From: a bacterium
GTDB lineage: Bacteria; Armatimonadota; Zipacnadia; Zipacnadales; UBA11051
Assembly: GCA_021372615.1 (NCBI GenBank)
Contig: JAJFUB010000080.1
Location: 1 to 64,000 of the forward strand
Reading direction: 5' to 3'
Length of the DNA: 64,000 nt
Shown: in pieces, positions 21,674 to 24,501 of the stretch
How positions within the stretch are numbered: the stretch's first letter is position 1
Layout: every line of letters starts with the position of its first letter
The notes under the pieces: generated by a model
What the model saw: the letters and a program-made list of their open reading frames with translations, nothing else
What the model was told of the DNA's origin: nothing
Database searches by the model: none
Program-made: the position numbers and the translations under genes

Positions 21674-22558
21674 ATGGCGGAACTGGACCTCAAGCTGCGG
21701 CACTACCACTTCGACTTCGGTGAAGGCCAACTCTGGCTGGAGGAGAACACGCGCGCCGTCGAGAGCGTGCGGTCGTTCAAGCCCCAGGAGATGGCCCTGA
21801 TCCTCGTAGACTGCTGGGACCGCCATTACCTCAAGAGCTTCCTGGCGCGCAGCGACCAGATCATCCGCGAGTGCATCGTCCCCCTCCGCGACGCGTGCCA
21901 TGAGATCGGCATCACCGTCGTCCACGCTCCCTCGCCCGCACAGGCCAAGAGGTACCCGCAGTGGCTGCAGTACGCCGGCGATGAGGAGCTATTCAGCCGG
22001 CAGGCGACCTCCGTTCCCGACTGGCCGCCCCCGGGCTTCCGCAGCCGCAGTGGCGAGTACCAGCAGTTCGCCAAGCAGCCCGGCGCGGTCGTGCAGGCCT
22101 GGCGGGTCGTCGAGGCGGACCAGCGCCGCATCGCGCCGGAACTCGAGCCGCAGGACGGGGAGTTCGTGATCGCCACCGGGCGGCAACTGCACCGCCTGCT
22201 GCGCCACCGCAAGATTCTGCACCTGCTGTACGCCGGCTTCGCCGCCAACATGTGCGTCCTGGCCCGCGACTACGGCATGAGGGCCATGCACCACCGCGGC
22301 TACAACACCATCCTGCTGCGCGACTGCACCACCGGGATCGAGGCGCACGATACCGTCGGCGCACAGGCGCTGACCCGGGCGGCGGTCCTCGAAGCGGAAA
22401 TGCTGCTGGACTTCACGGCCGACTCGCAGGACCTGCGGGCGGCCATCCGGCGCTGCCTGGGCCCCGAGGCCCCCGACAGTCAGGGCGGCAGCGGCGGCAC
22501 CTCCGTGGCCAACGGCGAATTCGTCCGGCGCCTCACCGGGCGGGTCGCGCGAAAATAG
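21674..22558 (+). CDS. Isochorismatase-like cysteine hydrolase
   Basis: 294 residues. The cysteine-hydrolase fold is shown by MALILVDCWDRHYL (catalytic Asp strand), GITVVHAPSP, and the nucleophile strand LLYAGFAANMCVLARDYGMRAM, followed by a typical NTILLRDCTTGIE. Members hydrolyse amides or isochorismate-like ethers; nicotinamidase, N-carbamoylsarcosine amidase and biuret hydrolase are relatives. The core is of normal length, with an extra N-terminal 40 residues and a Gly/Ser-rich C-terminal tail. The ATG at 21674 has GGAG 7 nt upstream. It is cytoplasmic, with no signal. The substrate cannot be inferred from neighbours. Confidence 0.85.
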   Translation: MAELDLKLRHYHFDFGEGQLWLEENTRAVESVRSFKPQEMALILVDCWDRHYLKSFLARSDQIIRECIVPLRDACHEIGITVVHAPSPAQAKRYPQWLQYAGDEELFSRQATSVPDWPPPGFRSRSGEYQQFAKQPGAVVQAWRVVEADQRRIAPELEPQDGEFVIATGRQLHRLLRHRKILHLLYAGFAANMCVLARDYGMRAMHHRGYNTILLRDCTTGIEAHDTVGAQALTRAAVLEAEMLLDFTADSQDLRAAIRRCLGPEAPDSQGGSGGTSVANGEFVRRLTGRVARK

Positions 22559-22581
22559 TTGCCACGACCGTTCGGTTCTCC

Positions 22582-22610
22582 TTAACAAGTACCCCGGTTT
22601 GGACTATAAT
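22582..22610 (+). promoter_or_regulatory. Strong sigma-70 promoter driving a structured RNA
   Basis: TTAACA at 22582-22587, exactly 17 nt, then a perfect TATAAT at 22605-22610. Transcription would begin near 22617. It is one of the best promoter matches in the window and no gene start lies within 360 bp downstream. Confidence 0.88.
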
Positions 22611-22616
22611 GTAGCC

Positions 22617-22918
22617 GTAGCAGCCTCGCATAGGTGTGTACCTCCCGCTTGCGCGGGGGGCAAACGTGTCGCATACAGAGTTGAGTTCAGTGAAGACGCG
22701 TCTGGTCAGGGACAACATGAATGTGAACGGCGCGCTGTTGAGCGCGTCCCTTCATGTCTGCTCCCTGCTGCTTGGCCTCCACGTGGACATTACGGGCGTT
22801 AATGCCCCCCACGCGGCGCCCGGCTCGCGGCCACGACGCTCACCTGATGGATAGACCCTAGGTCCTTACCTGTCATCAGAACGGCCGCGAGCAAAGACAG
22901 CTCGCGGCCGTTTTGTTT
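22617..22918 (+). ncRNA. Candidate structured non-coding RNA or 5' regulatory leader
   Basis: About 300 nt run from a consensus promoter to a perfect intrinsic terminator with no plausible gene inside. At least four hairpins are readable. (1) CCTCCCGC 22641-22648 pairs with GCGGGGGG 22653-22660. (2) A compound stem spans 22707-22767: CAGGGA/TCCCTG, ACATGAA/TTCATGT and GGCGCGCT/AGCGCGTC with a GTTG tetraloop. (3) CGTGG 22782-22786 pairs with CCACG 22809-22813, enclosing GGGC/GCCC. (4) CTGATG 22844-22849 pairs with CATCAG 22874-22879, enclosing GACC/GGTC. I do not recognise tmRNA, RNase P, SRP or 6S consensus blocks. The sigma-factor gene starts 61 bp beyond the terminator, so the RNA may be an attenuating leader for it, or an independent small RNA. 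Confidence 0.7.
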
Positions 22919-22920
22919 TG
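22880..22920 (+). terminator. Perfect rho-independent terminator at the end of the structured RNA
   Basis: A 13-bp stem AACGGCCGCGAGC (22880-22892) and GCTCGCGGCCGTT (22900-22912), a 7-nt loop, and the tract TTTTGTTTT. It is the strongest terminator in the window. Confidence 0.93.
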
Positions 22921-22980
22921 TCGGCCGCAACTTATGCGGGATAGAGGCCCGCACCACCCGCCGGGAGAGCGGGAGAAGAA

Positions 22981-23523
22981 GTGAGACCGATGAGAGCTTT
23001 GATCGCGGCGGCACAGACAGGTTGTACCAGGGCGAGGGCGCAACTGGCGGCAGCGTTGCGGCCCCGGCTGGCCTCGATGGCGCGGTACTACGCGCGACGC
23101 GGCAATCTCGACTATGATGATCTGCTGCAAGAGGCGTGGTGCGCGGTCTTCGAGGCCCTCCCCGAGACACGCCTGCACATCGGGTCGCCGCAGGAGTACC
23201 TGCTGCGCCGGGCCCGCTGGGCGGTCCTGGACTACCTGAAGTGGTCCCTGCGCCGCCAGATGGCGCCCCTGGAAGACTACCAGGGCGAGGACGAGCGGGC
23301 GAACACGGAGGCCGAGACGGTGCTGCGCCTGGCGGTGGACAAGCTGGCCGACACGATGACCCCGATGCAGCAGAGCGTCCTGGACATGCTGATCGCCGGC
23401 GAGAGCTGCACCAGCGCGGCCGACCGGCTGGGCTGCACCACGGCGAACGTCTCGTACCACCTGGGGCAGGTCCGGCGGCAGATGCAGGGTCTGTTCGCCG
23501 AAGAGGCCGTCCCGGCGACCTAG
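22981..23523 (+). CDS. Sigma-70 family RNA polymerase sigma factor
   Basis: 180 residues. Region 2 is at about residues 25-90, with MARYYARRGNLDYDDLLQEAW matching the core-binding 2.2 helix (DLxQE) and an aromatic-rich 2.3/2.4 helix ending RRARWAVLDYLKW. Region 4 (about 125-170) has the helix-turn-helix MTPMQQSVLDMLIAGESCTSAADRLGC-TTANVSYHL. No region 1 or 3 is present, so it resembles ECF-type or short sigma factors (160-200 residues). The start is GTG at 22981 with GGGAG 5 nt upstream; an ATG nine bases later is the alternative. No anti-sigma gene is adjacent. The structured leader and terminator upstream suggest expression may be set by attenuation. Confidence 0.87.
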   Translation: MRPMRALIAAAQTGCTRARAQLAAALRPRLASMARYYARRGNLDYDDLLQEAWCAVFEALPETRLHIGSPQEYLLRRARWAVLDYLKWSLRRQMAPLEDYQGEDERANTEAETVLRLAVDKLADTMTPMQQSVLDMLIAGESCTSAADRLGCTTANVSYHLGQVRRQMQGLFAEEAVPAT

Positions 23524-23564
23524 TGGGAGCGCGGCGCTCCCGAGCCGCACGGGGGAAGGTAAGG

Positions 23565-23608
23565 GGCCGGGGGCCTGACGCGATTGCAGCGCGTCAGGTC
23601 CTCCGGCC
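23565..23608. terminator. Bidirectional hairpin terminator between convergent genes
   Basis: CCTGACGCG/CGCGTCAGG (23574-23582 with 23590-23598), extended outward by GGCCGG/CCGGCC. It lies between the sigma-factor gene (plus) and the TIM-barrel gene (minus). There is no T tract. Confidence 0.65.
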
Positions 23609-23679
23609 CCACGGCGGGGTCAGCCCCCTCTGGGGCCGGCTGCGCCGACCCCGGCGGGGACAGACCCCTCAGTACGCTC

Positions 23680-24501
23680 TCAGCACAGCGGCTCGAGGAT
23701 CGCCATCGCCCGCTGGATGTCCTCGACCTGCTTGTCGCCGCTGATCTCGCGCTCGATGGTCAGCGCCCCGCAGTAGCCCAGGCTCTTGAGCTTGGGCACC
23801 AGCACCGGGAAGTTCACCCGGCCCTCGCCCATCGGCTTCTCCACGCCCAGCTTCTCGCCGCCGGTGGGGTACTCCCCGTCCTTGGCGTGCACGCCGCGCA
23901 CCCAGGTGCCAAAGACATCCAGGGCGTCCACCGGGTTGCCATTGCCGTACATCAGCAGGTTGGCGGGGTCCAGGTTGATGCCCTGGTTCTCGTAACCCAC
24001 GTCCTGGATGGTGCGCAGGAGCGTGATGGGCGTCTCCTGGCCGGTCTCATACCAGAACTGCACGCCGCTGTCGGTGCAGGCGGCCAGGACGTCCTTGAGG
24101 GCCGCCACGGTCTCCTGGTACTGGCGGTCGCCGGGCCACGAGGGGATGAAGCCGCAGTGGGTGGTGATGGACTGGATGCCGATCTTGCCGGCCATGACGG
24201 CGGCGGCCTGGAGAGCCTTGACGCGCTCGGGGCGCCATTCGTCGGGGACGAGGCCGATGGTGGACGGCCCCTCGGTGAAGTTCCACACCGCCGGGCCGGG
24301 CAGCGATGCCCAGAGCGTCGTCACGGTGACCCCCGCGGCCTGGGCGGCGGCCTGGAGCGCCTGGCCGACCTCGAGCGCCGTGTTCGGGGGCCAGCCGAGC
24401 TGGCACGACGGCAGGCCCAGCGACTTGACCTTGTCCACGGCTGCCTGCGGATCGCCCTCACGCAGGTGTAGCATTACGCCAATCATCAGTTTGCAGGACA
24501 T
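23680..24501 (-). CDS. Sugar phosphate isomerase/epimerase (xylose-isomerase-like TIM barrel)
   Basis: 273 residues. An AP-endonuclease-2/IolE-like TIM barrel: MIGVMLHLREGDPQAAVDKVKSLGL at strand 1, SITTHCGFIP mid-barrel, ALKDVLAACTDSGVQFWYETG with the metal-ligand Glu, GINLDPANLLMYG with the Asp ligand, VRGVHAKDGEYP with the His/Asp pair, and ALTIEREISGDK with the final Glu. These match the divalent-metal site of the family. It would isomerise or epimerise a sugar or ketose. GAGG stands 7 nt before the ATG at 24501. It is divergent from the glycosidase gene at 24614, and both could serve the same sugar pathway. The substrate is unknown. Confidence 0.9.
   Translation of the reverse strand: MSCKLMIGVMLHLREGDPQAAVDKVKSLGLPSCQLGWPPNTALEVGQALQAAAQAAGVTVTTLWASLPGPAVWNFTEGPSTIGLVPDEWRPERVKALQAAAVMAGKIGIQSITTHCGFIPSWPGDRQYQETVAALKDVLAACTDSGVQFWYETGQETPITLLRTIQDVGYENQGINLDPANLLMYGNGNPVDALDVFGTWVRGVHAKDGEYPTGGEKLGVEKPMGEGRVNFPVLVPKLKSLGYCGALTIEREISGDKQVEDIQRAMAILEPLC

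Follow-up and report, generated by a model that had tools for sequence, protein, structure and literature searches.

The window analysed here, i.e. a stretch of 64,000 nucleotides of contig JAJFUB010000080.1 (GCA_021372615.1) from a bacterium of the phylum Armatimonadota, carries at positions 22582-22980 a leader region placed directly upstream of a sigma factor gene. The features of the locus are as follows.

22582-22610, forward strand: promoter TTAACA-N17-TATAAT (-35 element at 22582-22587, -10 element at 22605-22610), from a scan and comparison with relatives
22641-22660, forward strand: hairpin CCTCCCGC-TTGC-GCGGGGGG, from sequence and fold, the 3' arm of which includes the SD sequence GGGGGG (22655-22660) of the upstream ORF
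22666-22854, forward strand: upstream ORF (uORF) for the leader peptide VSHTELSSVKTRLVRDNMNVNGALLSASLHVCSLLLGLHVDITGVNAPHAAPGSRPRRSPDG, 62 codons, SD-preceded, with GTG start and TAG stop (22852-22854)
22708-22767, forward strand: compound stem with GTTG loop, from the fold, inside the uORF
22823-22832, forward strand: antiterminator strand GCTCGCGGCC, exact complement of 22883-22892, inside the uORF
22877-22921, forward strand: intrinsic terminator with a 16-pair stem (22877-22915), a 7-nt loop and a T tract, from a scan and conservation
22883-22892, forward strand: 5' arm of the terminator GGCCGCGAGC, partner of both the antiterminator strand and the terminator 3' arm
22981-23523, forward strand: gene for an ECF-type sigma-70 family factor of 180 aa, starting with GTG at 22981 (in-frame ATG at 22990 also possible)

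A preliminary description of this DNA had placed a sigma factor downstream of the leader, which was borne out: the gene, which starts at GTG 22981 or ATG 22990, was recognised as sigma-70 by both Pfam (Sigma70_r2, 2.7e-9) and NCBIfam (TIGR02937, 3.2e-14). The protein combines sigma-70 region 2 (Sigma70_r2, residues 23-87) with a region-4-like HTH (GerE-type, residues 125-169) and is devoid of regions 1 and 3, which is the layout of an ECF-type factor. TIGR02937 (sigma70-ECF) scored above its own cut-off, and every other NCBIfam subfamily remained below its own. This sigma factor was detected in 63 of the 291 Armatimonadota genomes searched.

The promoter TTAACA-N17-TATAAT, pointed out in the same description, scored 11 of 12 in the promoter scan and is the sole promoter-like site within positions 22000-24000, with 0.1 expected by chance. 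It is the positional homologue of the element TTTAGCA-N16-CGATA found before sigma orthologues of other families. The order of parts, namely promoter, small ORF, hairpins with terminator and sigma gene, is repeated in relatives, and the leader keeps its place upstream of the sigma gene across Armatimonadota, while its sequence outside promoter, SD and terminator diverges rapidly. The stretch between promoter and terminator was alignable in close relatives only and is filled by a coding frame; DNA similarity across relatives consisted mostly of G+C-rich chance matches, with the exception of the terminator.

Predicted folding of positions 22617-22922 yielded -134.8 kcal/mol (z = -3.86 against dinucleotide shuffles), in line with the earlier characterisation of the leader as highly structured. 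The search of Rfam that had been recommended was performed, and in the whole window no family reached its gathering score, tmRNA, RNase P, SRP, 6S, riboswitches and leaders included, which agrees with the earlier failure to match hallmarks of the first four; at relaxed thresholds, the leader gave weak, chance-level sub-threshold matches only. A metabolite-binding riboswitch, with an aptamer controlling the terminator, would fit a structured leader with a terminator ahead of a gene. It is nevertheless highly improbable, given that there was no conserved aptamer-like core in the leader, the region between promoter and terminator being alignable in close relatives only and taken by a coding frame, and no match to a riboswitch in Rfam.

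The approximately 300 nt behind the promoter were previously regarded as having no credible gene. This has to be corrected, since an open frame extends from GTG 22666 (or, alternatively, from the in-frame GTG 22690) to TAG 22854 and is preceded by GGGGGG at 22655-22660, with an SD energy of -9.4 kcal/mol. A leader ORF with a ribosome-binding site, as needed for a ribosome-mediated attenuator, is thus predicted from the sequence. With an ORF defined as having at least 12 codons and an SD energy of -9 kcal/mol or lower, SD-preceded small ORFs were identified in 47 of the 64 sigma leaders from Armatimonadota vs 2.3% of dinucleotide-shuffled leaders. The hairpin at 22641-22660 may limit initiation at the uORF.

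The uORF peptides vary from 15 to 64 codons, and neither length nor sequence is kept across families. In several close pairs dN was about equal to dS, and length differences corresponded to whole codons. Because of these two properties, the comparison suggests that the act of translation is under selection more than the peptide itself. The small ORF could alternatively encode a functional small protein, e.g. an anti-sigma factor or another sigma partner, with an ordinary terminator merely tuning the operon. Its conserved position immediately upstream of the sigma gene and the C-terminal motifs, such as CSPR(S)G or PRFGS, that are common to some close relatives would be compatible with that, but this reading is quite unlikely: it is opposed by the lack of conservation across families and by the dN to dS relation, on account of which a conserved small protein was rejected, and it leaves unexplained why the ORF end overlaps with the antiterminator strand.

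The compound stem highlighted in the preliminary description as a 61-nt element was found at 22708-22767 with its GTTG loop, but it lies inside the uORF, in a segment upstream of the antiterminator strand whose structure is unexceptional (z = -1.31 vs shuffles). It was therefore rejected as a functional core; possibly it acts as a pause hairpin.

The terminator at 22877-22915 has a predicted energy of -31.1 kcal/mol and is followed by the tail TTTTGTTTTG. It had been described with a stem of 13 bp and a T tract; the terminator is present, but its stem counts 16 pairs. Although the scan alone would return 0.7 such terminators by chance, a terminator is conserved in the same place in relatives. 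It is located between the leader ORF and the sigma gene, as expected of an attenuator, and the order to which the window belongs has conserved this arrangement. In many families an intrinsic terminator closely precedes the sigma gene, and some leaders have no clear terminator.

The antiterminator strand begins at codon 53 of 63 of the uORF, and its distance to the last base of the stop codon is 22 nt. Complements of 7-10 nt to the 5' arm of the terminator were found within the 3' end of the uORF in the window's order. Tested against shuffled upstream DNA and combined by Fisher's method over seven leaders of this order, the complement was significant both for longest match (p ~5e-7) and for duplex energy (p = 1.5e-5), some individual leaders (G020, G031) being not significant in the duplex-energy test. 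The eight leaders of the order, among them one close pair, all have the antiterminator strand within the uORF, at a distance of 22-36 nt from the last base of the stop codon. In predicted stability, their antiterminator domains (-29 to -40 kcal/mol) are comparable to the terminators (-24 to -31 kcal/mol) or surpass them. When folding is modelled with a ribosome close to the antiterminator strand or beyond it, the antiterminator is lost; with a ribosome stalled upstream it generally persists, with exceptions in G001. For G001 and G011, the ribosome-free RNA was predicted to fold otherwise.

In the alignment of the eight leaders, 82.5% of cells were paired for the antiterminator, as compared with 25-49% after sliding, and 98.8% for the terminator. 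A single coordinated change across the three strands was detected, C/G/C in the window vs T/A/T in the others. The check for covariation in relatives proposed in the preliminary description hence gave one supporting change, but with eight sequences 59 of 500 shuffles were as good, which is explained by the few sequences available and by the nearly invariant terminator sequence. Covariation was accordingly rejected as a proof of the antiterminator, since it amounts to one coordinated change in too few sequences.

Mutually exclusive pairing of an antiterminator that overlaps the ORF end with the terminator thus characterises the window's order and is not general outside of it: among 28 other leaders, longest-match Fisher p was 0.35, and a simple antiterminator rule for all families was unsupported. 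Since the complement is not general and some leaders have no clear terminator, the switch may differ between families, others possibly using, for example, SD masking. Sequences before the terminator of L029, L034 and L081 look, by eye, complementary to the sigma SD region, which hints at added translational control in other families. One could go further and assume that control is mainly translational, the uORF governing access to the sigma SD and the hairpin being less important. For the leader studied here, with its strong terminator, its T tract and an antiterminator conserved in its order, this is unlikely.

Originally, the locus had been read either as a stand-alone RNA or as a leader with a terminator gating sigma expression in the manner of a riboswitch or attenuator. 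The attenuator is upheld by the constant position of the leader before the sigma gene and by the conservation of the antiterminator in the order; the uORF, the fast divergence and the Rfam result speak against the other options. A stand-alone regulatory RNA of ~300 nt, made from a promoter and terminator of its own, with a separately promoted sigma gene as an incidental neighbour, would account for the complete promoter-to-terminator unit and for the folding z-score of -3.86. We regard it as very unlikely, because throughout the phylum the unit keeps its position before the sigma gene despite its divergence, SD-preceded ORFs are far commoner than chance, the terminator arm pairs with uORF sequence, the promoter-like site is the only one in 22000-24000, and Rfam offered no match.

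We therefore favour, with a probability of roughly 0.78 and on the strength of sequence comparison, the reading of 22582-22980 as the 5' leader of the ECF-type sigma gene, acting as a ribosome-mediated transcription attenuator, with the sigma factor driving its own gene and a translation-repair regulon. RNA polymerase would transcribe the uORF (22666-22854), and ribosomes would translate it co-transcriptionally, their position presumably setting the fold. Ribosomes reaching the uORF end would cover or pass 22823-22832, the terminator 22877-22921 would form and the sigma gene would be switched off, so that a terminated transcript of ~300 nt is the product to be expected under healthy translation. 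If ribosomes stall, slow down or fail to initiate upstream of 22823-22832, this strand would pair with 22883-22892, no terminator would be formed and the sigma gene would be transcribed. The trigger might be a translation inhibitor, a shortage of tRNA or tRNA damage. The sigma factor would then transcribe its own gene together with the translation-repair regulon, and in relatives it would boost genes for RNA repair, ribosome rescue and tRNA replacement.

In orders other than that of the window, the sigma gene typically has TTTAGCA-N16-CGATA, or a near variant of it, as its promoter. We took this element to be the site of the sigma factor itself, and exact matches were compared with reversed-pattern controls and tallied by hand. 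The 63 sigma-carrying genomes contained 121 matches, the promoters of the sigma genes included, vs 19 controls, and the 228 sigma-less genomes 45 matches vs 45 controls. Sigma factor and motif thus co-occur across the genomes, which is consistent with recognition of the motif by this factor. Ten matches were present in G075, a MAG of 82% completeness in which the sigma factor was not found, although its congener G074 carries it; this genome is an exception.

The genes directly behind sigma-type promoters, as identified with Pfam, comprise HflX (G057, G055 and G104), RsgA (G055 and, just after the sigma gene, G046), T4-type RNA ligase (G057 and G067), a MutS2-like protein with MutS domain V, Ro60 (TROVE with vWA), RtcB, KptA/Tpt1, Thg1, RIO kinase, GNAT acetyltransferases and YceD. 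Other sites precede unrelated-looking genes, such as AAA ATPases, ABC transporters and an AbiEii-like nucleotidyltransferase, and some of the motif sites will be due to chance. In the genome of the window, the diverged promoter CTTADCA-N16-CTATA occurs at only two sites, in its own leader and at L175; this species may possess the same kind of regulon.

Several sigma-type promoter sites in family f22 precede tRNA genes. Operons of this kind (L094, L099, L102, L103, L134, L192, L194 and L196) share the layout of promoter, short ORF, intrinsic terminator and tRNAs. Leader peptide MNAFFYQPYPYPPPPALPRGA precedes tRNA-Tyr and tRNA-Pro, MIVKRTTTRKTRRTTRRGKAPLRV precedes tRNA-Thr and tRNA-Lys, MVQRIHREIRIGQIICPSTVASPLWT precedes tRNA-Ile, a Gly/Ala-rich peptide precedes two tRNA-Gly and one tRNA-Ala, and a peptide of 48 residues with many E, D, N, R, Q, L, C and H stands before a stretch of nine tRNAs carrying those residues. 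Across six operons, the true pairing of peptides and tRNAs was the best of 720, i.e. the leader peptides are enriched in the regulated residues, as are those of amino-acid attenuators; L118, L134 and L125 were not individually enriched, as far as single-operon P values with approximate background residue frequencies can tell. In the sigma leader itself, no run of regulatory codons is obvious.

The usual targets of attenuators are enzymes or resistance genes, and what is known of RNA repair comes mainly from RtcR/sigma-54. The regulon of whiB7/wblC includes hflX and a GNAT acetyltransferase, and the targets inferred in relatives of the window likewise include HflX and GNAT acetyltransferases. 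In actinobacteria, full translation of the whiB7/wblC uORF favours a Rho-independent terminator, and disrupted translation leads to an antiterminator and read-through (PMC11550727, PMC13236596). The leader described here would follow the same logic of uORF, terminator and antiterminator, and again the controlled gene is a transcription regulator. Unlike in whiB7/wblC, it is an ECF-type sigma factor with Sigma70_r2 and TIGR02937 matches instead of a WhiB-family protein, it belongs to Armatimonadota, and RNA-repair enzymes and tRNA operons with cognate leader peptides are among the inferred targets.

A uORF with mutually exclusive terminator and antiterminator is also shared with vmlR of Bacillota and related resistance leaders. 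In vmlR, ribosome stalling induces the downstream gene (PMC9226507); unlike the window's leader, it has an anti-antiterminator that is disrupted by the stalled ribosome, and it controls a resistance ATPase directly (PMC9226507). The leader peptides of the tRNA operons resemble those of the trp, his and ilv attenuators (for ilvB1, see PMC13236596) in being rich in the amino acids of the product and followed by a terminator, whereas the genes regulated are the tRNAs themselves and not enzymes of amino-acid biosynthesis. The operon rsr-yrlBA-rtcBA, controlled by RtcR and sigma-54, responds to tRNA fragments that bind the CARF domain of RtcR (PMC7790460). It has in common with the present system a dedicated regulatory route to RtcB and Ro60-type genes upon tRNA damage, whereas the sensor proposed here is the ribosome translating a leader ORF and the factor is of the ECF type. 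In the literature searched, within the scope of which most subscription papers did not fall, we found neither an ECF sigma factor controlled by a uORF attenuator nor tRNA operons behind cognate leader peptides.

Taken together, the data raise the prospect, to which we would give even odds, of a two-tier response to translation failure. The uORF-gated ECF sigma factor would answer general stalling, and codon-matched leaders with terminators at the tRNA operons would resupply only those tRNAs whose codons stall, alongside RNA-repair (RtcB, KptA, RNA ligase, Thg1, Ro60) and ribosome-rescue (HflX, RsgA, MutS2-like) proteins. A poorly studied phylum appears to have linked a sensor based on the ribosome to a sigma factor, the promoter of which lies in front of RNA-repair, ribosome-rescue and tRNA genes. 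If true, the cognate-rich leader peptides before tRNA operons would show directly that bacteria are able to adjust their supply of tRNAs in response to failed decoding, and the matching of peptides and tRNAs yields sharp predictions.

Some minor observations should be added. The site L175 of the window's genome (G000:C31:8412; CTTATCA-N16-CTATA) stands before a methyltransferase-like ORF, and the ORF after that one resembles an acetyltransferase. Six identical matches to TTTAGCA-N16-CGATA were found in G256 on contigs C6, C12, C31, C32, C72 and C151, several of them 30 bases from the contig start, and are probably copies of a repeat element. A second family of short leader peptides, for which Rfam gave no match, was noticed at sigma-type promoters, in many cases right behind the sigma gene (L149, L148, L105, L106, L107, L100, L113, L119 and L140); in L042, L043 and L083, such peptides lie before the sigma promoter. 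These peptides have 13-17 codons and endings such as APASGGGRF*, TPAPGAGRR* and SASGVGRN*; in some, CACCCGCC inside the ORF appears to be a complement of the SD GGAGGTGGGTG, and in G046 the leader is followed by RsgA.
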